Source: Syncephalis fuscata
Lineage: Eukaryota > Zoopagomycota > Zoopagomycetes > Zoopagales > Piptocephalidaceae
NCBI GenBank assembly: GCA_025786725.1
Contig: JAHLTZ010000009.1
Location: forward strand, 310,001-374,000
Direction: 5' to 3'
DNA: 64,000 nucleotides
Part shown: positions 28,103-60,634 of the stretch, in pieces
How the letters are laid out: each line of letters starts with the position of its first letter
Position numbering within the stretch: position 1 is the first letter of the stretch
The notes under the pieces: generated by a model
What the model saw: only the letters and a program-made list of their open reading frames with translations
Told to the model about the DNA's origin: nothing
Database searches by the model: none
Made by a program: the position numbers and the translations under genes

Positions 28103-30276
28103 ATGATTCGTCTTTTAATGAAATTATCTTTTACTCTTTTATTAACGCAATATGTGCAATTTGGTCTGGGCGAATCGTTCGGTGGCGATGTATCCTCTAT
28201 ACTTGATAAAATGGCACCCGTCATCAAAATCCAAGAATATCTTGACCGTAATACACAATCGCTAAGAGACGATCACCCAGCACTTATTGTATCCACAGAA
28301 TATGGCCGTGTACGCGGCCGACCCAACCTAACTGTTCGTGAGCGATTTTTGGAGATTTTTGGCCGTGACAAATTTATCGCTAGCCACCCACGTGTTTTTG
28401 CCGGGTATGTTATCTGCTCAAAATATCAATTAGATCGCAGCTAATAACCATTTGATGTAGAATACCATTTGCAGCACCTCCAGTCGGTAATCTAAGATTT
28501 GAGCCTCCTGCTCCTTTCAATGATACATGGGGTGGTATTGATGCCAGTGGCAAACCATATGGTGCAATTCGCGATGCAATTAGCTATCCTAATGACTGCC
28601 CACAACATTTTCTTTCTCTTGGTCGATCTGAGGACTGCCTTTATCTTAACATTTTTGTGCCGCCTGCCGATAAAATAGCAGCTGACAAACCGCTACCTGT
28701 ACTTTTCTACGTGTTTGGCGGTGCGTTTGCCTTTGGTGGCTCATATTCATTCGACTTTTACAATGGTCGATTTCTTACCGAGCACAAAGATGTAATCGTT
28801 GTGACATCTAACCATCGTACAAATGCTTTTGGCTTTTTTACAACCGACGAAGTACGCGGCAATGCTGCTATTGAAGACCAACGAGCGGCTATGCTTTGGG
28901 TAAAGCGAAATATTCGTGCTTTTGGCGGTGATCCCGATAACATTACACTATTCGGTTTTAGCTCAGGTGCAACCTCGGTCGGTATTCATTTGACCTCACC
29001 GAGAACACCGCCCAATCTATTTAAAAATGCTATTATGCAATCGAATCCGTTTGGCATTCGAATGCGTAGTAAAGAACAAATCCGTGCCTCAAGTGTCGAG
29101 CTAGCAGAGCTTGTGGGTTGCAAAAATAGCGACGGCAAAGTTGATATGGCTTGCATGCGAAGCAAGCCATGGAATACTATCATTGATGCCATGGGGCATG
29201 CGCCAGATGGAAAGCAAGTTGGAACTTCTCCGTTGTCAGATCCATTTGCATGGTGGGCCTCCATTGACGGCTACAATGTTGTTGAAAATCCACGTACAGC
29301 ATTCCAAAACGGACATTTCAACAAAAATGTCCCAGTAATTTTGGGAAATACACAGTAAGTAATAGTAACAATACTTTAATTCAGTATAATCCATTTGGAT
29401 ACTAACTTATTAATTTATCAACTAATAAGGGACGAACTTGGTTTTTGGGTATTACAAATGTTATACAAGCCTGGTTCACCTGGCGCAGCCAAATTATTTG
29501 GTTTGAATGGTTACGAAAAACAAATGGAAACCATATTTAAAAACACTACAGCTGAAGTAAGTATCATCCACTAGTTATTGACCATGTTATTAACAACAAC
29601 TAAAGGTTAGAAACCAGTATCCAATTGATGTCGATGTGAATAAAAACATAGACAGCTACATCAGACTCGGTACTGACTACGAGTTTTTGTGTCCGAGTGA
29701 TGACGTAAGTTGAAGTATATATGTATTTGCCGTTGTATAGGATGCTAAATTTTACTTTAGGTGGCCAAAGCTATCACACGTCACGGTGGCCAGGCCTATG
29801 TTTATTATTTTTCACAAGCAGGAATATTCCCGCCCATTGGTTAGTAATGTTACATTATTATAATCAGCTATAACTAACTTTATGTACAGGTGTTTGTAGG
29901 GGTCGCACATGCCACTCTGTTGACTTAACGTATACGTGGCGTGCGCCATTCTATTTCTTTATGAGCAAAAAACAAGAGCGTCTTTCTGACCATTGGATTT
30001 CTTATTACACGAATTTCGCCACTACTGGCAATCCAAATAAAGGACCAAGCATCGAGGTAGACATGGAAGATCCGGAGTTTAAATCGCTATTGCCAACCTG
30101 GCCAGCATATAGCATTAATGAGCCACTCTATCAACATCTTGCTGATACTGTGCAGCCTATATCGCCGCCACATCAAAAATCTTGTGCTTTTTGGGTAAGT
30201 AATAAATGCAACACATGCTTATAAGCTATATTTAACATTATAATGCACGCAGAACCAAGTTGGCTACCGATTTTAA
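28103..30276 (+). CDS. Secreted type-B carboxylesterase (alpha/beta hydrolase)
   Basis: Hydrolyses carboxylic esters; exact substrate unknown. The N-terminus is a signal peptide (MIRLLMKLSFTLLLTQ... ending near GLGES), so the enzyme is secreted or enters the secretory pathway. Exon 1 is 28103-28404; then come GIPFAAPPVG, the type-B signature EDCLYLNIFVPP, the oxyanion segment VFGGAFAFGG and the nucleophile elbow GFSSG (catalytic Ser). The acid is in the next exon (NTQDELGFWV) and the histidine in GRTCHSVDLTY. About six short introns are present. The last one splits FW|NQVGYRF and the stop is TAA at 30274-30276. The catalytic triad therefore looks complete. The length, about 550 residues, is usual for the family. 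Confidence 0.93.
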
Positions 30277-31034
30277 AGACAAAGATGACGGGTACTATTG
30301 CAAGGAATTCTAATAATGACAATACCAAATAGGTGCCGATGCATTTTAACTAACTAGAGCCACCTTATAATGGCATTAATAGGATCCTAGAATTATTATT
30401 CTTTTTAAGTGACAATCATATCATTTTAGCATGTAATGGTATGAATAATTGTAATGCATGAAATAAAGTAAATTTTACTACAACATCAGTGACAAGCTGT
30501 TTAATATACCCAGTGCTGTTTGTTTGTTTGTTTCCTATATATGCTCGGTACTGTTTGTAAAAACGCATTGTTTAAAGCAATTACCATTTCCATCCAACAT
30601 AAAAGCACGTGTATATAGCGAAATGATGGTGAATAACCAACCACGTTTGTACCACTTGTATCCGACAACAAAGGTATACGCCGGTAATGTTATGACTGAA
30701 AATAGCAAGATTATCCTTTTGCCCGAGCTCTTTACCATGCGAGATCAAGTCAATGATTTGCATTTGGATGCATTTGGAAAATGTATAAACTGCTATATAA
30801 AAATGATCTTAGAAGCAGCATCAATCTGTATGGAAGGACATATACCTGTTATCATGCATGAGCCAGCATTACGGCACTACTCAAATACTCGGCTTTTTTT
30901 TCAGCTCCGTGTATTAGCCATTTTAAATTTCTATTCTCGTAAAGTTCATATATCATTTATATATATATTATTGCTGTTTTATTAGTACAATTTACGCTGT
31001 AAATCTAACAATTTTATACGAAACTATAATCTAA
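30277..31034 (+). other. Spacer with an unrecognised 153-codon ORF (30524-30985)
   Basis: The interval between the carboxylesterase and 7TM member D holds one plus-strand ORF of 153 codons. Its middle part has mixed composition (TTKVYAGNVMTENSKIILLP, LHLDAFGKCINCYIKMIL) unlike random AT-rich sequence, but its end is low-complexity and hydrophobic. I recognise no domain and find no flanking splice sites. It may be a gene fragment or chance. Confidence 0.25.
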
Positions 31035-34149: not shown

Positions 34150-34694
34150 AATATTGGGACCCGAGTTGCTCGGTGGAAGTGACAGCAAATACATCATTAT
34201 TGTTTTACAAAACCAAACAATATACCTGTTTTTACCAAATAGTTAAATTGTGTAACAAAAATACAAGCGAATATGTTTATTTTTATCATATATACTGGAT
34301 TATGAGCACTGCTAAAGTACTCGTGCAAATAAATAAGAGCTTGAAGTAAAGACCGGGCAGGTTGTGCGCTGTTTAGTATGCATATAGATATTAAGGGCCG
34401 AATCGGTAGGAATGGCGGCAAAAATATCATTATTGTTTTACAAAACCAAGCAATATGCTTGCTTTTACCAAATAGTTAGACCGTGTAACGAAAATACAGG
34501 CGAATATGTCTATTTTTATCATATGTACTGGATTATAAACACCGTTGCAGTACTCGTGCAAATAAATAGCAGATTGAAGTAAAGACCGGGCAGGTTATGC
34601 ACTATTTTGTATGCATGCGGATATTGAAGACCGAATCATTAAGTGGAAGTGACAGCAAAGACATCATTATTGTTTTATAAAGCCAAACAATATA
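34150..34694 (+). repeat. Tandem repeat, period about 240 bp, ~2.2 copies, upstream of the six-cysteine peptide gene
   Basis: The motif CATCATTATTGTTTTACAAA and its surroundings recur at about 34190, 34430 and 34670, with AGACCGGGCAGGTT shared at about 34351 and 34591. The third, partial copy runs into the promoter of the gene at 34799, so promoter-proximal sequence has been duplicated upstream. Confidence 0.85.
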
Positions 34695-34798: not shown

Positions 34799-34999
34799 AT
34801 GAAGCTTTCTATTGCCGCTGTTTGCACTATTGTCGTAGCTCTTGTAGCCAGTACAGCTATGGTGGATGCTAAACCAGCCTTAATTCGTCGTGATTACGAT
34901 AGCTGCATGTTTGAATGTCGCATGGGTTGTTCCTATCCTGATTATGGAATGATTTGCAAAACCGTTTGCGACAGAGAATGCCGCCGTGCTAACCCATAA
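34799..34999 (+). CDS. Small secreted six-cysteine peptide, intronless paralogue
   Basis: A 66-residue precursor in a single exon. The start at 34799 (MKLSIAAVCTIVVALV) is preferred to an in-frame ATG at 34772 because it begins a canonical signal peptide, with predicted cleavage near VDA|KP around residue 24. A dibasic RR at residues 30-31 looks like a Kex2 site. The mature part has six cysteines at residues 36, 40, 44, 53, 57 and 61 (spacing C-x3-C-x3-C-x8-C-x3-C-x3-C), suggesting a disulfide-linked helical hairpin. Role unknown: effector, antimicrobial or signalling peptide are all possible. Promoter, signal region and 3' flank are shared with the fragmented gene at 46079-49026. Confidence 0.88.
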   Translation: MKLSIAAVCTIVVALVASTAMVDAKPALIRRDYDSCMFECRMGCSYPDYGMICKTVCDRECRRANP

Positions 35000-45670: not shown

Positions 45671-46078
45671 TGAATAGTAGTACTAATATAGCTATACTGC
45701 TTCATATTGGTGAACAGTTTATAATTCCTGTACAAGTCTGATATTGGTATGCTTGTTCGATTAGTGTTGTTAATTATTATATATAAATTAAATACAAACA
45801 TATGCAACAAATTATTGCTATTATTAAAATGAAACCATAGATTTATTACTATAAGCTTGCACAGTTGAATAGAAACAACTAGATGCAAACATGTTGGTAA
45901 CATAATGATTCCATTGATTAAAGACTGGATAAACCGGAGCATTGGCCAAAACTTGATATATAGATAGACTGGACAGCGTAGTTGTCAAATGGTCTTGCTT
46001 TTCACCGAATATATACCTAAAGCGTATTGGACTAGTGGTTTGATTGCACTACCAATGCTAATGTCTTGAAGCCATTGA

Positions 46079-49026
46079 CTATTCTGTATTTACAAATAAA
46101 GATATTATATGGTACATAATTAATTTATACTCTACTAATATAATACTACTTACTGCCTATTAGTATTAAGTTGTTGATACACATGGTGCATAACATGTGG
46201 TTAGTGCGTAATTAATTAATATATAATACAACCTACATTCATCTAATATTAATTAGTTGATGGATACAGTAAATAGCATGTAGTTAGTGAGTAACCAGTT
46301 AGTATACAATATAGCTTACCTTCTATTGATATTAATTTATTGCCGCACACATTACATGATGTATAATCAGTGCATAGTTAGTTAGTACATAATACAACTT
46401 ACTGCCTATTAATATTAAGTTGTTGATGCATATAATACATGACACAATTAATGCATAATTAATTAATACACACCATAACTTACATTCTATTATATTAAAC
46501 AATTAATGCAATTAGCAAATAACATAGTTAATGCATAGTCAGTTAATATACAATACCACTTACTCTCTATTAATATTAAATAATTGGTACAATTGGTAAA
46601 TAGCATAGTTAATGTATAGTCAGTTAATATACAATACCACTTACCAGCTATTTATATTAAATAATCAGTACAGTCAGTCAATATTATAGTCAATAAGTAG
46701 CCAGTTAATATGCAGCACAACTCACCGCCTGTTGGTATTAAGTTGTTGATTTATACAGTAAATGGCATGTGGTTAGTACATAGTCAATTAATACAGAATT
46801 TCACATACAATCTATTAATAAGGTTGTTGATGCATACAGTATATAGCACATAATTAGTGTTTAGTTAGTTAATATGCAGTGTTACTTACTTTCTATTGAT
46901 ATTAAATAATTGATATAATCAGTAGATAGCACATAATTAGTGCATAGTTAGTTAATATTTAATGTTACTTACGACCTATTATATTAAATTGTTGATTTAT
47001 ACAGTACATGGCATGCAATTAGTAAATATTCAATTAATACATAATACAACTTACGACCTATTATATCAAGTTGTTCATGCACACAATACATAGTACATAA
47101 TTAGCTAGTAGCCAATTAATACACAACATAACTTACGAACTATTAATATTAAGTTGTTGATACACACAGGACATGGTATATAGTTAGTGCATAGTCAATT
47201 AATGCGCAATACTACTTACTTCCTATGGTATTAAGTTGTTGATAAACACAATACATGACACAGTCAGTGAGTAGTCAGTTAACATACAATGTTGCTTACT
47301 CGCTAATATATTAAGTTATTAATATACACAATACATGGCACATAATTAATACATGATTAGTTAATATACAAGGCTACTTACCGCCTATTAATATTAGGTT
47401 ATTAATATACACAATGCATGGTATATGGTTAGTCAATACTCAATTAATATATAATATAACCTACATCCTATTAATATTAATTTGTTGATACACGGTGCAC
47501 AATATAAATTAGCACACAGTCGGACAATACACAATGCTACTTACTCTCTATGGTATTAAGTTATTGATACACATAGTGCATGGTATAGAATTAGTGCATA
47601 GCCAATTGATATACAATGTTACTTGCCCACTAATATATTAAGTTATTAATATACACAATGTATGACACGTAATTAATACATGATTAGTTAATATACAATG
47701 CTACTTACCGCCTATTAATATTAGATTATTGATATAGACAATACATGGTATATGCTTAGTCAATACTCAATTAATATATAATATAAGAGAGGGGGTACGC
47801 GAAGAAGAAAGAAGAGAACTAATAAAAACAGCAACAAAGACGGCATTGGACTTCGTATGGAAGAAGATATGGAAGACAAGATGCAAGCAAGTGGACGAAG
47901 CAATAGGAAGATGGAAAACAGTACGTACCGACACACAAATAGCAGGTCAACCAGAACCACAAGAAGGTCCGGCAACAAACGCTGAAGGCCAGAGAGGCCT
48001 GAGGCAAATTTATACCTGGGACCACACCAATAAAATGGCGTTCGACGTCGAACGCCACCTAAAGATGGTGGCCCCCGCGTGGAGTCTATAGGACCCGGCT
48101 CCATGCAAAAACGTGGCGGTCCACTCGGTATCAACAATGCTACATTGTTTAATATTTTAAAAGCTTTATTATAATTAACGCGATAACAGCATGACACTGA
48201 GAAGCAGCACAAATTCTTTAATTATGCGCAGCGGGGGCCCACAAGCTCTTCAAAATAAAATAAAATAAAATAATATATAATATAACCTACATCCTATTAA
48301 TATTAATTTGTTGATACACGGTGCACAATATAAATTAGCACACAGTCGGACAATACACAATGCTACTTACTCTCTATGGTATTAAGTTATTGACACACAT
48401 AGTGCATGGTATAGAATTAGTGCATAGCCAATTGATATACAATGCTACTTACCGCCTATTAATATTAAGTTGTTAATACACATGGTGCGTAACATATAAT
48501 TAGTGAGTATCAATTATTATATAATACAACTTACATTTAGCTAATATTAATTAGTTGATGGACACAGTACATAATATATAATTAATGCATATTCAATTAA
48601 TATACAATACAACCTACCAGCTATTGATTTGTTGATGCATACAGTGCATGACATATAATTAATGAATAGAAATTTAATGCACAGTACAACTTACGATCTA
48701 TTATATTAAATAATCGGTACAATCAGCGAATAGCATATTTAATATATAATCAATTAATATACACCACAACTTACCCTCTATTAATATTAAATAATTGATA
48801 CAATTAATAAATAGCATGTGATTAGTGCAGTCAATTAATATACAATATCACATACGAGCTATTATAATAATTATTTAGAAATACCGTTAGTAAATAAAAT
48901 GCCATATCATATTCATTGTTATTGCAACATACCACGACGAACTAAGGCTGGTTTAGCATCCACCATGACCGTAGCGGCTATCAAAGCCACAACGACGATG
49001 CAAACGACGGTAATGGAAAGCTTCAT
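46079..49026 (-). CDS. Hyper-fragmented gene for a secreted six-cysteine peptide: 30 exons, 28 of them 3- or 6-nt microexons
   Basis: Paralogue of the intronless gene at 34799. Exon 1 (48933-49026) encodes the signal peptide and propeptide to RR at residues 30-31, ending in phase 1 before a GTATGT donor. Microexons in transcript order (high to low) are 48856-48858, 48775-48777, 48695-48697, 48618-48620, 48535-48540, 48453-48455, 48371-48373, 48291-48293, 47709-47711, 47627-47629, 47545-47547, 47465-47467, 47382-47384, 47300-47302, 47220-47222, 47137-47139, 47055-47057, 46973-46975, 46890-46892, 46809-46811, 46726-46728, 46645-46647, 46564-46566, 46484-46486, 46403-46405, 46320-46322, 46237-46242 and 46154-46156. 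The last exon starts at 46083, with TAG at 46079-46081. Each lies between an AG and a GTAAG-like donor (one GCAAGT). The joined frame is open: 62 residues, cysteines at 38, 41, 45, 53, 57 and 61. The last three match the paralogue exactly. Role unknown. Confidence 0.85.
46084..48932 (-). repeat. Tandem array of 29 homologous spliceosomal introns (unit about 80 bp)
   Basis: Seen as plain DNA this is a 2.85-kb minisatellite with a period of about 80 bp. Each unit on the minus strand begins with GTAAGT (variants GTATGT, GTAGGT, GTGAGT, one GCAAGT). It has one or more branch-like CTAAC/CTAAT motifs and ends in a T/A-rich tract with ATTAATAG, ATTATATTAG or ACCATAG, and one CAACAG. Between each AG and the next GT lie exactly 3 or 6 bases. 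Intron lengths are 70-80 nt, except the ninth (579 nt), which carries a LINE. Higher-order repetition is visible: a four-unit block at about 47305-47630 is repeated at about 47631-48456 once the LINE is subtracted. Confidence 0.9.
47787..48270 (+). mobile_element. 5'-truncated LINE-type non-LTR retrotransposon
   Basis: A 484-bp insertion of clearly different, GC-richer composition lies inside the ninth intron of the fragmented gene, opposite to it in orientation. It is flanked by a 15-bp target-site duplication (TAATATATAATATAA at 47772-47786 and 48271-48285). It ends in a TAAAA-repeat tail, as expected for target-primed reverse transcription. A 5' coding remnant reads like the C-terminus of a LINE ORF2 (LDFVWKKIWKTRCKQVDEAI and then a Pro/Glu-rich tail) to a TAG at about 48090, followed by a short 3' UTR. 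Confidence 0.85.
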
Positions 49027-52273: not shown

Positions 52274-54514
52274 CTATTTGGACGACTCATCAAGAGTCGT
52301 TAGATTAGTAGATACAGTTTGACGGAAGTTACCAATAGCACGGGCCATAGTACGTAGTAATGTGGTGCGTCGTTGTAATGGACGATGATCTGTTGCCGCT
52401 GTTGCCGCTGTTGCAGTCTCTGATCCATCACTGCCATTATATTTGTTACTTGGTTGAGATGATGTTATAGTAGCTCGTCTCAATCTATGAACTAATTTCC
52501 CTTCTTTATTACGCATAGGTAATCGATTGGGTGTGGCTAAATGAATCCGTGGCGCTGCCTTCTTAACTCGTACCATAGTGATGGCGCGTGGCCGTACACA
52601 AATCAGTAGATCGTGTCCAACTAAACCAACTGACCATCGTTGTCGTTCAAGTCCAGGACGTATACGATGCTGTCGTTTATGGGCCAAATCCCATTCATCT
52701 AGCAATAAAAAGTCTGTTCTAGTTAATTGATCATCAGCCGATATAGATGATATTAATGGTGATGGGATCTCTTCTAGTTGATGTAAATACTGTTCACTCT
52801 TTTCAGTATCGACTAGAACGAGTTCACCATGAAAGGTGGCCCCCATAAGCCATAAGTCACCCACAATAGATTGTGGTATGCCTTCATGAGGTAGTCCGGG
52901 TATACCGCGTAATACTTGACCCGTCTCTAGAGAAATAATACGAATCATCGATTCAGATGAAAGCAGCAGTAAATGCCGTCGATTAGGTGCAGGTATAACC
53001 GACTGGACCGTGTAACGCGGGCCTGTACAATGCCACAATTGCCCATTTTTACTAGTTGTAGTATGACTTAGCGAGTGCAGTAAAATAAATGGCGTTAATC
53101 GCTGGTGTTCATCACGGGTCATGCCTGCCAATACAACACGCGTATTGTCCACTTGAGTTGATACAGTTCGGTGGATTTCATCAGGACGGCTGCCCAAACT
53201 ACCCTCACTACTAAGACCCCATCGTTGTAAATTAGATTGAAGTTCGCCTGTATCATCAGCGCCGTCAATTGATGGTCGAATAAGTTGCCAGTTAAATTGT
53301 TGTGTTTCCCTATCATAATTATGGCGATAGACTAGTACATCGATAATAGATGCATCTGATAAAGGATAGGAGCGTGATGAACGGATTTTATGTAAATGAC
53401 AACATCCAGCTGCACCTTCTGCAACTACTATCGACTGCTTTAATTCATCAACTGACGTTATCGTATTTGTTTTTTGCGCATTTTGTTTATCCATTGCCAG
53501 TTGACAAAACGTAAATGTCCAGTGGTGTTCACTAGAATTGTATAAAATATCTGTGGCTGTTTCATAGTTATGTGGCTGATACTGAGATTTACTAATAGCG
53601 TTGGTTCGCTGTTGGTACCGTTGACGATATAGCAGAGAATGGTTGCAAATGGCCGATATAATAAATGGATATTGTGATCCAGAATACCAGCAAAGTGTAC
53701 GGTCTACTAAACGCCATATCCAAATGGCTGAGCGCCACTGGCTTGTTGTACCTGTTGTACTAGCAGCAATAATAGTAACTACTGCATAGTCATTACCGCT
53801 TAATCGACCATGTATTTCATGGAACGGTGCATAACGAGCATTACTCCATAATTCAATATCGCTATCGTCAATACTAAGATGTTGATTATTACCATTGCGT
53901 TTTATTAGTCGAGGATCAAGCGATAATGGACAAAGTCGTGTTGGTGATGCCCATTGAGAAATATTGGTTATTTCAGGGTCAGTTGAAGGTGGATGGCATG
54001 CTAGCAGAATGGTAAGTGGTTCGGTGCATGCCACCAATGACCATCCTTGTATATTAGCATCTAGTAGTTTTAATTCACCAGGAAATAACGGTTCGGAGAC
54101 TTGTCGATCTGTATTGAGTGTATCCAGTTGCGGTAGAATGACTGGAAGCGACGCCACTGTTCCATGTTTCCAGTTTAATGGTGCAGCAGCGCGTAGACGG
54201 AGAAAGGTTAACCAACGAGCCGATGATCGTTTCGCTGGCATAGAAAGCTGGTCAGTATCATTTTCATCGTTGTTAGTAGTAGTAGTAGTTGATGAAATAG
54301 CCGGCAGTGTTGACGATATTAGCCAAATAGGTTCTTCGTCACCAAATTGTTCCTGATAGTGATAGCGCCATAAGCGTTCACTTTGGCAAACTGCATCACC
54401 TAACCAGCGAGCACAGGTAGCTAAAGAAATAAGTGATTCTTGGTCCAAGTAGAGTAGAATGGCTTCCAACAATTCGATTGGCAATGCAAGTCGGTGCTTT
54501 GAACTATTCGACAT
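52274..54514 (-). CDS. F-box protein with a probable beta-propeller
   Basis: Likely substrate adaptor of an SCF ubiquitin ligase. I start it at 54514 (MSNSSKHRLALPIELLEAIL), not at the longer ATG at 54619, because the F-box begins right there. The F-box is LPIELLEAILLYLDQESLIS...ARWLGDAVCQSERLWRYHY at residues ~11-60. The remaining ~680 residues form repeated beta-rich stretches (WRSAIWIWRLVDRTLCWYSG, SMIRIISLETGQVLRGIPGL, GDLWLMGATFHGELVLVD), compatible with a degenerate WD-like propeller. A basic, Ser/Thr-rich tail follows. It is a single exon, which is unusual here given how intron-rich the neighbours are. Confidence 0.85.
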   Translation of the reverse strand: MSNSSKHRLALPIELLEAILLYLDQESLISLATCARWLGDAVCQSERLWRYHYQEQFGDEEPIWLISSTLPAISSTTTTTNNDENDTDQLSMPAKRSSARWLTFLRLRAAAPLNWKHGTVASLPVILPQLDTLNTDRQVSEPLFPGELKLLDANIQGWSLVACTEPLTILLACHPPSTDPEITNISQWASPTRLCPLSLDPRLIKRNGNNQHLSIDDSDIELWSNARYAPFHEIHGRLSGNDYAVVTIIAASTTGTTSQWRSAIWIWRLVDRTLCWYSGSQYPFIISAICNHSLLYRQRYQQRTNAISKSQYQPHNYETATDILYNSSEHHWTFTFCQLAMDKQNAQKTNTITSVDELKQSIVVAEGAAGCCHLHKIRSSRSYPLSDASIIDVLVYRHNYDRETQQFNWQLIRPSIDGADDTGELQSNLQRWGLSSEGSLGSRPDEIHRTVSTQVDNTRVVLAGMTRDEHQRLTPFILLHSLSHTTTSKNGQLWHCTGPRYTVQSVIPAPNRRHLLLLSSESMIRIISLETGQVLRGIPGLPHEGIPQSIVGDLWLMGATFHGELVLVDTEKSEQYLHQLEEIPSPLISSISADDQLTRTDFLLLDEWDLAHKRQHRIRPGLERQRWSVGLVGHDLLICVRPRAITMVRVKKAAPRIHLATPNRLPMRNKEGKLVHRLRRATITSSQPSNKYNGSDGSETATAATAATDHRPLQRRTTLLRTMARAIGNFRQTVSTNLTTLDESSK

Positions 54515-55057
54515 GATCAGTAAGCATAGAGTGGCCGTCAACAGATGGTGTGTGTATGTGCCTAGTTGGTTAACTACTATAGTTATGATAGCTAAAAGTG
54601 TAATCACAAGCTTGCCCACTTATTTAGTTATAAAGATGAAGACTGCCCTGTATCGGGAGTACATATAGAGAAGGCGAAAGAGAGACAGAGAGAAAGACAG
54701 AGAGAGAGAGAGAGATGAGTACAGAAGTAAAGATAGACTATACAACAAACTACTAGATCATTAAAATAAATATAAAGCGAAAGAAAGCGAACTAACAGAA
54801 TAAATAAGCGGGCCTGTGCATGTCTATAATAGACACATGAAACACGACTGGCGTGAATAAACGTGATTCTCCATTTGAGTACATGCCAAGAGTTTACATA
54901 GAATTAAACTGTTATGCATATCTATCCACTATCTATGTATTTATTTATTTGTTATACTATTATTTATAAAAATCTATTGATAAATGTCCAAGTGAATAGA
55001 AATAATTGTGAGTATTTATACGTCATTCATATTTCATTCTACGCAATACTGTCAATG
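54515..55057. other. Intergenic; GA-rich tract near 54670-54715
   Basis: Upstream region of the F-box gene with an AGAGAG purine tract. No gene seen. Confidence 0.5.
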
Positions 55058-58447: not shown

Positions 58448-60634
58448 ATGCGTGAACAAAACTTTTGTTTTCCTGAGCAGCAACGTGCCTGCCTCACTAT
58501 CACTCCATCGCTTTATGATCGACGCGCATTGGATTGCACGGCACCGCTACCATTGCTCACCTCATTGATGCATTTATCGCTCATGACATCATCATCACAG
58601 AGAGTACGTGAAGCTTTGTCAATCGATGGTGGTCTAGAACGCCTTACAAACATACTTGAAACCACTTCACGCTCCGATCATCCAGATCGCCGCAGTGCCT
58701 GGCGTTGGATCCTTGCCTATCATTGCTTGGTCAATGTCGGTGTACGTGGATCGGAACAGATCCGCGCTCGTGTTGAACGAAGCGGCGGTGTACGAGTTAT
58801 TATTCGTGTATTAGAGAGCTATTTAAAGACACTAGAGTCGATGCGTATGGCAAGAGAGCCTGCTGCACGCAATGCACACTCTTTTTCAGCCGTTAACTTA
58901 CCAATGGTAGCGGCTACAACAACAACAATCACAACTGAAGGTGTGGTTCCAATGGAGGTAGAAGAATCATTGCATATTGATGCATCGGCCAATGCTGCTG
59001 CATCGACAGCTGCAGCAAGAGTAGCCGCTGGTATGACGACAAACACCGATGATATGGATGCAGCAAGCAATATGTTGACCGATTCATCGGTTATTGATAC
59101 CAGTATGCGTCGTTTACCTACTTGGGCAGCCAATTTAATTGCTGCACGATTACAGCAGGTAACACCACTGGCCGAATCATCAGCTGCCGCGAACGAACTT
59201 ACAACAATGCCATTATCGCTTAATGACCCTGAAGCCACAAATCAACTCTATAGCGTTGTTAATAATATTATTAACCAAGTTGATTCAGTATCTGCATCAT
59301 TCTCAAACATTGCCGCTACACAGCTTGACCGGTCACGTACACCTAATTCCATTATGGCCAATGTTCTAGATGAACCGCCATTCCGTGAAGAAGATATTTT
59401 ACTGGCATTGCAACTATTGGCCTATTTATCTAAACATCCAAGTATTCGTGATCGTTTGCATGCCAACTATTCCGTTAATGTTTTTACACTGGTCGAGCGT
59501 TTCTGTGCTCGTCATCACTCTCATACCATCCAACTATGGGCTGGTGTAGTTATGCGCAATGGATGCCGCAAGGATGATACACGCGGCGGACTTCGACGAT
59601 GTGCTTATTTGCATTGTGGTCGTTGGGAATCAAGGCCACATGAATTTGCCAAATGCCGTCGTTGCCGTAAGGCCAAATACTGCTCGAAACAGTGTCAAAG
59701 CCATGCGTGGGCAGATGGACATCGCTACTGGTGTGTAGCAAGACAGCCAACAGCCAGCACTAATGCACAAGCTAATGGCACAACGGCTATAAACGATGCT
59801 ATAAATGCTGCTACCACCACCACTACTACTACAACTACAACAACCATGGCAGGTACTGAAATCATTTTCCCAACCATTACTACAACGACCACCACCACCA
59901 CGACAGCTGCAACTAATCCTACAGCACATCATGTCACTGGTTTGATCGGCAATCCACTCAATGATCCAACACCTCATCCTTTAGTAGACATTGGCCTGAC
60001 GACAATGCCTCCGACCATTACTACAACACCAATGCCTACAGGTACGGCATTTGCCGCTGTTACCGATGATGCCGCAACTGCAAATGCCATACTGAATCGA
60101 ACTGTTGGCGCTGCAGCAACAGCTACTAATACCATTACACCTACAGTTGCTGGTATTAATCCAGCAGAGATTCGACGACAGGTACAACCAAGTCAATCCA
60201 TCATGCCACTATCAACTGCTCCCTCTTCTTCTTCCTCGTCTTCCTCTTCTCGTTATACTACAGTCGCTACTACATCATCAAGTAGTAGCATGTCTACAGC
60301 AACAATGCCACTTGTTAACAGTTTGCCGACGATTAATGGACACATCACGAATCCATCACGACCAAGCTCTGCAACGACTACAACAACCACAACTGGCACA
60401 ACTGGCACCGATGATGACGATGAAGATGATTTAATGGTAACAACACAGTCAAATGGTGTTAATGTTACAGCAAGTGTTACTTTAACGGCAGGTCATCGTA
60501 CACCGGCTGCAATGGCAGCAGTAAGTGGTACATCGTCGTCAACACATGCTACACGTAATGAATTATCGACTGAAGATGAGTTATCGACGACAGAACATGG
60601 CACTTTTCATACTAGTGCCTTTTCTTTATCTTAA
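58448..60634 (+). CDS. MYND zinc-finger protein of the MUB1/SamB type
   Basis: In Dikarya MUB1/SamB partners the Ubr2 ubiquitin ligase and affects morphogenesis. A single exon of 728 codons. Residues ~1-125 match the N-terminal domain (QQRACLTITPSLYDRRALDC, LTSLMHLSLMTSSSQRVREA, RSAWRWILAYHCLVNVGVRG). A second helical block is at ~310-360 (EEDILLALQLLAYLSKHPSI). The MYND finger is at ~385-430 with all cysteines and the final histidine/cysteine ligands visible (CAYLHCGRWE, KCRRCRKAKYCSKQCQSHAW, GHRYWC). The last ~300 residues are Thr/Ala/Ser-rich low complexity, partly encoded by ACN repeats. It looks complete. Confidence 0.9.
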   Translation: MREQNFCFPEQQRACLTITPSLYDRRALDCTAPLPLLTSLMHLSLMTSSSQRVREALSIDGGLERLTNILETTSRSDHPDRRSAWRWILAYHCLVNVGVRGSEQIRARVERSGGVRVIIRVLESYLKTLESMRMAREPAARNAHSFSAVNLPMVAATTTTITTEGVVPMEVEESLHIDASANAAASTAAARVAAGMTTNTDDMDAASNMLTDSSVIDTSMRRLPTWAANLIAARLQQVTPLAESSAAANELTTMPLSLNDPEATNQLYSVVNNIINQVDSVSASFSNIAATQLDRSRTPNSIMANVLDEPPFREEDILLALQLLAYLSKHPSIRDRLHANYSVNVFTLVERFCARHHSHTIQLWAGVVMRNGCRKDDTRGGLRRCAYLHCGRWESRPHEFAKCRRCRKAKYCSKQCQSHAWADGHRYWCVARQPTASTNAQANGTTAINDAINAATTTTTTTTTTTMAGTEIIFPTITTTTTTTTTAATNPTAHHVTGLIGNPLNDPTPHPLVDIGLTTMPPTITTTPMPTGTAFAAVTDDAATANAILNRTVGAAATATNTITPTVAGINPAEIRRQVQPSQSIMPLSTAPSSSSSSSSSRYTTVATTSSSSSMSTATMPLVNSLPTINGHITNPSRPSSATTTTTTTGTTGTDDDDEDDLMVTTQSNGVNVTASVTLTAGHRTPAAMAAVSGTSSSTHATRNELSTEDELSTTEHGTFHTSAFSLS

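Follow-up and report, generated by a model that had tools for sequence, protein, structure and literature searches.

Arrays of three-nucleotide exons appear to encode a family of six-cysteine peptides in the fungus Syncephalis fuscata

Results

A gene at 49026-46079 on the minus strand of a 64,000-nt stretch from the zoopagomycete Syncephalis fuscata (assembly GCA_025786725.1, contig JAHLTZ010000009.1:310,001-374,000; hereafter the window, within which coordinates are given) consists of a 94-nt exon 1, 28 microexons, 29 introns, and a final exon with the stop codon. By far the best explanation of this gene and its relatives, and one that we hold with high confidence, is that S. fuscata makes a family of six-cysteine peptides by the ordered splicing, by the ordinary spliceosome, of exons one codon long; the splicing, its order, and its fidelity we infer from the gene sequence. 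The array can be described as satellite-like, with a unit that would comprise an ordinary short intron (~78 nt, GTAAGT...TTAATATTAATAG) and three exonic bases in phase 1. Joined in the phase set by exon 1, the exons give a 189-nt open reading frame (ORF), i.e., 62 residues and a stop, with the translation MKLSITVVCIVVVALIAATVMVDAKPALVRRAQDPAKCERCVERCARIRRQNCAEKCKDECK.

A family of array genes with a locked exon length

Searching the 28.95-Mb genome with the protein of an intronless paralogue in the window (34799-34996) gave 150 scored places among 317 candidates. The match ended at residue 38 or earlier of the query at 102 of the 150 places, at residues 39-50 at 24, and beyond at another 24; since the 102 end near the exon-1 boundary, the array gene appears to be a family and not a single gene. 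Behind exon 1, microexons were found at all 20 examined loci of the exon-1-only match type (just seven at L011), and eight further array loci were added, with 28 of the 29 parsed arrays lying outside the window. For parsing, we used a Viterbi model of donor and acceptor profiles in which exon lengths of 1-30 had a flat prior; it was trained on 22 genes and applied to seven more, the learned profiles being GTAAGTNNT for the donor and TTTAATATTAATAG for the acceptor. Among the 829 internal exons called in the 29 genes, 773 are of 3 nt and 42 of 6 nt; the off-size calls are of 2 nt (six), 7 nt (four), and 4, 13, 27, and 30 nt (one each). Two of the six 2-nt calls are misreadings of a 6-nt exon, and the four 7-nt calls are read as 3-nt exons with a tandem donor. 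GC donors account for 15 of 858 donors in the parsed arrays. Exon 1 measures 94-97 nt in the array genes listed. In 15 of 17 genes listed, one of the array positions 3-5 is taken by a 6-nt exon, which precedes the first cysteine (Cys1) in the spliced sequences.

The same length was found by a strict junction pattern (acceptor, n exonic bases, donor, and intron start) searched genome-wide, which matched 786 times with three bases, never with 4-5 bases, twice with six, and twice with 0-2, while the reversed pattern, used as control, gave no match. Most of the ~15 junction clusters adjoin a family exon 1, as judged by eye among the matches listed of the 786. The pattern under-counts 6-nt exons because their splice sites are less regular (compare the 42 called in the parsed genes), and its recall of 235 of the 773 called 3-nt exons (0.30) leads to a rough genome total of 2,585. 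The initial annotation of the window gene had judged the agreement among its features very unlikely by chance, and both the 773 of 829 called exons and the 786 strict junctions, against none reversed, bear this out. Matches in two protein database searches (seven proteins) came from S. fuscata only, and the mature peptide of L012 alone, used as genome query, returned no candidates. Two side observations concern the range of the family: in the array gene L029 (C13:177600-181200), exon 1 is divergent and its end and phase were not fixed by the parser, and the deposited proteins P0002 and P0003 join the family signal to mature regions that are quite different; exon 1 thus seems to front several peptide types.

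Evidence for coding across the introns

We examined coding in 19 arrays that, once corrected, contain only exons of 3n length, joining the exons in phase 1 and comparing the outcome with 5000 within-gene shuffles of exon order. The 606 codons contain 1 stop, compared with a shuffle mean of 38.9 (minimum 23), and 103 Cys, compared with a mean of 51.4 (maximum 73). After removal of three near-copies (16 genes, 497 codons), the figures are 1 stop versus 31.5 (minimum 18) and 85 Cys versus 40.6 (maximum 57). Since each codon is made of one base from one exon and two from the next, ~78 nt away, this dependence on order points to splicing and translation of the arrays, now or in the recent past. Six Cys are found in 16 of the 19 mature peptides, and when 13 chosen spliced proteins are aligned with the intronless one, five Cys columns of the mature part show no variation. 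In 12 genes the stop codon begins within the final exon (2-14 nt in); in six it spans the last junction, and in L019 it precedes that junction by 7 nt. In 192 units of one type (3-nt exon and 78-nt intron), the three exonic positions have entropies of 1.88, 1.91, and 1.99 bits, and 70 of the 78 intron positions have at most 1.2 bits.

Intronless relatives carry the same cysteine framework. The spliced window protein matches an intronless ORF on C228 (L039_329) over residues 1-59 of its 62 (64% identity, E 2.9e-17), and its match to its own exon 1 is weaker (E 3.8e-11). The mature peptides of these two genes score 73 against each other, compared with at most 35 for 300 exon-order shuffles against any of 12 intronless peptides. 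Among 14 spliced genes compared in this way with the intronless peptides, eight exceed all 300 shuffles, and the scores of L027 and L014 are reached by one and two shuffles, respectively. At the DNA level, the window gene and L039_329 share 24 of the 30 bases of microexons 1-9 in an ungapped match, 36 of 57 bases over microexons 1-18, and 85 of 94 bases in exon 1. The reading as consecutive one-codon exons, proposed when the gene was first described, is thereby supported by the exon-order shuffles, the Cys columns, the intronless matches, and the length lock.

Structure of the window gene

The microexons measure 3 nt (26 of them) or 6 nt (two), and the introns 70-80 nt with a single exception of 579 nt, the whole array having a tandem repeat period of ~82 nt. 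Our recount agrees with the numbers and sizes of microexons, the stop in the final exon, and the 189-nt ORF as initially annotated. The claim that all 29 units run from GT to AG holds for 28 introns; the remaining one, after microexon 10, has a GC donor in a GCAAGT context. The annotation is otherwise correct, apart from the 579-nt intron, which owes its length to an insertion. The six Cys of the spliced protein stand at residues 38, 41, 45, 53, 57, and 61, confirming the annotated spacing of x2, x3, x7, x3, x3, and the last three have the same residue numbers in the intronless paralogue at 34799-34996. Leaving out all 28 microexons gives a product of 32 residues, the same value as calculated before. 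The features are as follows.

48933-49026, minus: exon 1, 31 residues MKLSITVVCIVVVALIAATVMVDAKPALVRR (predicted signal peptide and propeptide, Arg-Arg end) and one base of the next codon
48856-48858, minus: microexon 1, 3 nt
48775-48777, minus: microexon 2, 3 nt
48695-48697, minus: microexon 3, 3 nt
48618-48620, minus: microexon 4, 3 nt
48535-48540, minus: microexon 5, 6 nt, directly ahead of Cys1
48453-48455, minus: microexon 6, 3 nt, completes Cys1
48371-48373, minus: microexon 7, 3 nt
48291-48293, minus: microexon 8, 3 nt
47712-48290, minus: intron 9, 579 nt, with an insertion resembling a short interspersed element (SINE)
47709-47711, minus: microexon 9, 3 nt, completes Cys2
47627-47629, minus: microexon 10, 3 nt, followed by the sole GC donor of the gene (GCAAGT)
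47545-47547, minus: microexon 11, 3 nt
47465-47467, minus: microexon 12, 3 nt
47382-47384, minus: microexon 13, 3 nt, completes Cys3
47300-47302, minus: microexon 14, 3 nt
47220-47222, minus: microexon 15, 3 nt
47137-47139, minus: microexon 16, 3 nt
47055-47057, minus: microexon 17, 3 nt
46973-46975, minus: microexon 18, 3 nt
46890-46892, minus: microexon 19, 3 nt
46809-46811, minus: microexon 20, 3 nt
46726-46728, minus: microexon 21, 3 nt, completes Cys4
46645-46647, minus: microexon 22, 3 nt
46564-46566, minus: microexon 23, 3 nt
46484-46486, minus: microexon 24, 3 nt
46403-46405, minus: microexon 25, 3 nt, completes Cys5
46320-46322, minus: microexon 26, 3 nt
46237-46242, minus: microexon 27, 6 nt
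46154-46156, minus: microexon 28, 3 nt, completes Cys6
46079-46083, minus: start of the final exon, the last two bases of a Lys codon and TAG at 46081-46079, followed by the 3′ untranslated region
45842-45847, minus: AATAAA, a likely polyadenylation signal
34799-34996, plus: intronless paralogue, 66 residues, with the cysteine framework of the array gene

The insertion in intron 9 spans ~480-500 nt (roughly 47787-48267) and has an A-rich repeated end. To the eye, similar insertions occur within array introns of L010 and L026, and a tRNA-like stretch can be made out there. SINE-like elements, their likeness judged by eye, are tolerated within array introns.

Observations that weigh against one-codon splicing, and other readings of the arrays

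Several observations count against the splicing of one-codon exons. We know of no precedent for the accurate splicing of ~29 introns between 3-nt exons. The six-Cys pattern is missing from L027 (five Cys), L019 (two), and L028 (none), and the real scores of L023, L018, L013, and L024 against the intronless peptides were reached by 12, 23, 26, and 51 of 300 shuffles, respectively. The arrays L016, L020, L026, L032, and L033 contain off-length exons and look damaged, L011 is a short array with a broken donor, and L015 has an oversized exon. Close copies (six pairs) revealed no clear purifying selection on microexons: three clean pairs differ at 5 of 324 microexon bases and 198 of 8689 intron bases, and in three other pairs the microexon and intron changes are 16/84 versus 103/1971, 22/99 versus 307/2502, and 3/30 versus 32/681. 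The higher microexon change in the latter pairs comes partly from units falling out of register; we dropped close-copy rates as proof of selection because they are too weak. Finally, few stops are also found when each exon is taken as a codon (2 of 495, compared with 39 of 479 in the third frame). This may reflect an avoidance of TAA, TGA, and TAG as exons: TAA and TGA would put a donor right at the acceptor, and a further acceptor could likewise arise where the units join. The reading of each exon as a codon was rejected: exon 1 stops one base into a codon, and in this frame the window gene has no Cys.

Some of the same properties would also suit a less uniform outcome, in which the arrays are spliced to many products and each gene yields peptide variants because differing sets of its one-codon exons are skipped in frame. 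This reading, which overlaps with the splicing of full-length one-codon arrays and has likewise been proposed for schistosome micro-exon genes (MEGs), we consider unlikely but with an appreciable chance of being right. Skipping would keep the frame because nearly all microexons are called as multiples of three, and the near-identical introns would make donors and acceptors interchangeable. When a 2-nt exon is left out in the three genes concerned, two regain six Cys and the usual stop, while in the third a stop comes two codons early. The presence of six Cys in 16 of 19 readings that include every exon is, however, what would be expected were the full-length product dominant.

It is far less probable that the arrays are relics, formerly spliced but no longer correctly so, with the peptide made from intronless members only. 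The damaged-looking arrays and the scant signs of purifying selection between close copies would suit such a history, but decay would bring frameshifts and stops, whereas one stop occurs in 606 codons and the strict junctions number none with 4-5 nt and 786 with 3 nt, which disfavors this reading. A non-coding minisatellite, with AG and GT close by accident and a frame open by chance, would account for the ~82-nt tandem repeat, but has next to no likelihood given the shuffles, the invariant Cys, the intronless matches, and the near-random exonic triplets within conserved repeats; we reject it on account of the exon-order shuffles, the genome-wide length lock, and the conservation of Cys.

Proposed splicing mechanism and product

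In the proposed splicing of one-codon exons, the major spliceosome would act by intron definition, recognizing every intron as a unit. Intron definition is suggested because the introns are short, and exon length would then be of little matter. A 3-nt exon could hardly be bound by two spliceosomes together, so the introns would probably be removed one by one, the 5′ exon lengthening by one codon with each removal. The carboxylesterase gene of the window (~28.2-30.3 kb) has several short introns with the donors GTAAGT, GTATGT, and GTTAGT (by eye); the array introns resemble these and therefore look like ordinary introns of the genome.

Translation would yield a signal peptide, a propeptide ending in Arg-Arg, and a mature peptide of ~30-48 residues, the propeptide being cut after Arg-Arg, presumably by a Kex2-like protease. 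A hydrophobic N-terminus and the Arg-Arg site can be read by eye in the exon 1 product. The mature peptide is probably a disulphide-braced helical hairpin; the model of the intronless gene has helices at residues 5-42 and 52-64, predicted with moderate confidence (mean predicted local distance difference test score [pLDDT] 71.6). Foldseek against PDB gave no significant match (best E 4.4 in 20 weak rows), and in Pfam none of four proteins scored above a curated cut-off (best Cys_box, 19.4/29 bits, and TIL, 15.6/24.5 bits). Among the 20 weak Foldseek rows are three plant peptides (VBP-1, Luffin P1, and a Jug r 2 fragment), which we take to be alpha-hairpinins, and neurotoxin B-IV, presumably another helical hairpin. 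Alpha-hairpinins have a helix-loop-helix with C-x3-C pairs, to which the predicted S. fuscata hairpin might correspond; the structural matches are non-significant. Syncephalis species parasitise other fungi, and from this lifestyle one may guess at a role for the peptides against fungal hosts or rivals.

Origin of arrays and intronless copies

Arrays would change by duplication or loss of whole units of an intron and a codon, thereby gaining or losing one residue with the frame intact. With fair confidence, we favor tandem growth of units together with intron loss through cDNA; the simplest view of the intronless members is that they derive from cDNA of spliced mRNAs. In 10 genes, intron likeness falls from a mean score of 0.563 at lag 1 to 0.470 at lag 16 or more, and units that share the same exon are more alike than others (0.568 versus 0.500). 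Multi-unit blocks of the window array are 90-96% identical. The likeness of near neighbours and the repeated blocks suggest that arrays grow and shrink by whole units. Intronless genes (e.g., L003) have the array-type final-exon sequence fused straight onto the coding sequence. L037 and L038, considered as candidate intermediates, are fully intronless and encode the same kind of peptide, with no array junction by the parser profiles.

The converse origin, in which introns inserted in the manner of introner-like elements at nearly every codon of an intronless ancestor, appears to us improbable, though still a serious competitor. Intronless members are scattered in a tree of flanks and exon 1, which requires six label changes (5-6 in bootstrap trees); this is equalled by 102 of 500 label shuffles, and the well-supported branches force just one change. 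In which direction the change went cannot be read from this tree. Fungi are known to contain introner-like elements (PMC4457414). Against insertion, each event would need to hit phase 1, and neighbouring introns as well as same-exon units are more alike, as tandem duplication predicts. Moreover, the gene at 34799 is homologous to array genes only from ~34690, about the presumed transcription start, and a promoter motif that 30 of 32 judged loci share, no more than 220 nt ahead of the start codon (intronless ones included; six more were too short), is missing only in this gene (L001) and its near-copy L002. Both features suit a copy made from cDNA at 34799.

The outer flanks of the 34799 gene are those of other family loci, and for this reason we kept the idea of a plain retrocopy at a random site only in part. 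L001 (1991-3195) and about a dozen loci have a common downstream flank, up to ~1 kb or more, so family loci may spread as larger segments. A 233-nt tandem repeat (34170-34694) lies directly upstream of the intronless gene.

Deposited models and neighbouring genes

In three deposited models, P0001 (L028), P0006 (the window gene), and P0007 (L026), intron or inserted sequence is read as protein. Since all three mapped models misread arrays, standard gene prediction appears to miss such peptides. Residues 32-33 of P0006 agree with microexons 1-2, and residue 35 onward is a reading of intron 4. Residue 34 (N) fits none of the enumerated splice combinations (acceptor AG, donor GT or GC), and so we used the model as evidence for nothing. 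A search of the deposited proteins with the sequence of the intact intronless ORF at 34799 did not retrieve this ORF itself. Elsewhere in the window lie the carboxylesterase gene with its several short introns (28200-30300), an ORF with a sub-threshold F-box-like match (52277-54619; 22.7/24.3 bits), and an ORF with a MYND finger (58448-60631).

Discussion

The exons of schistosome MEGs are several codons long. The arrays of S. fuscata are set apart from them in having one codon per exon, in belonging to a fungus, and in their repeat-like introns. In MEGs, most of the coding region lies in very small symmetrical exons, the products are secreted, and alternative splicing can vary a product by a few residues (PMC4350168); the two systems are alike in their tiny symmetrical exons and may be so in the secretion of their products. 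In the mature region of the S. fuscata genes, most coding sequence does lie in very small symmetrical exons.

Aphid bicycle genes have Cys motifs and are not known to be divided into one codon per exon. They have ~17 exons on average, and their many internal exons are unusually small and, with few exceptions, in phase 2 (PMC9168663); they resemble the S. fuscata arrays as fast-evolving putative effectors with many small exons of one phase. They differ in being an insect family and in their phase, as exon 1 in S. fuscata leaves one base and the microexons are multiples of three, giving phase 1.

In Arabidopsis APC11, a single-nucleotide exon is spliced, and the authors favor intron definition with stepwise removal (PMC4674806). 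Isolated 3-nt exons are also known. These are single exons in ordinary genes, whereas an array spells a whole peptide in S. fuscata. Fungal introner-like elements are described as near-identical spliceosomal introns in many copies (PMC4457414), which the array introns are as well; introner-like copies lie in unrelated genes, whereas those of S. fuscata appear to stand in tandem within the genes of one family, one per codon. Within the titles and opening lines of abstracts of the papers listed from the open-licence literature, preprints excluded, we found no report of one-codon exon arrays, and in the same literature no paper on Zoopagomycota together with microexons. Both the splicing machinery and microexon genes as a broader concept are already known, and on a strict view the one-codon-per-exon architecture could count as an extreme form of the latter.

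If the arrays are spliced as read, one genome would contain some 2,500 three-nucleotide exons (an extrapolation of the 786 strict matches by the recall of 0.30), and the mature coding sequence would never be continuous beyond two codons within a gene. The limits of exon size, intron definition, and the order of intron removal would become directly testable, and the intron arrays would serve as spacers that let peptide length change by single residues. We tentatively suggest, as an idea that may well prove wrong, that a satellite repeat here acts as a device for evolvability: with one codon in each repeat and introns that can replace one another, residues would be added, lost, duplicated, or combined by skipping, singly and in frame. 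In evolution, and perhaps also at the RNA level, such a device might diversify the disulphide-braced peptide arsenal of a mycoparasite.

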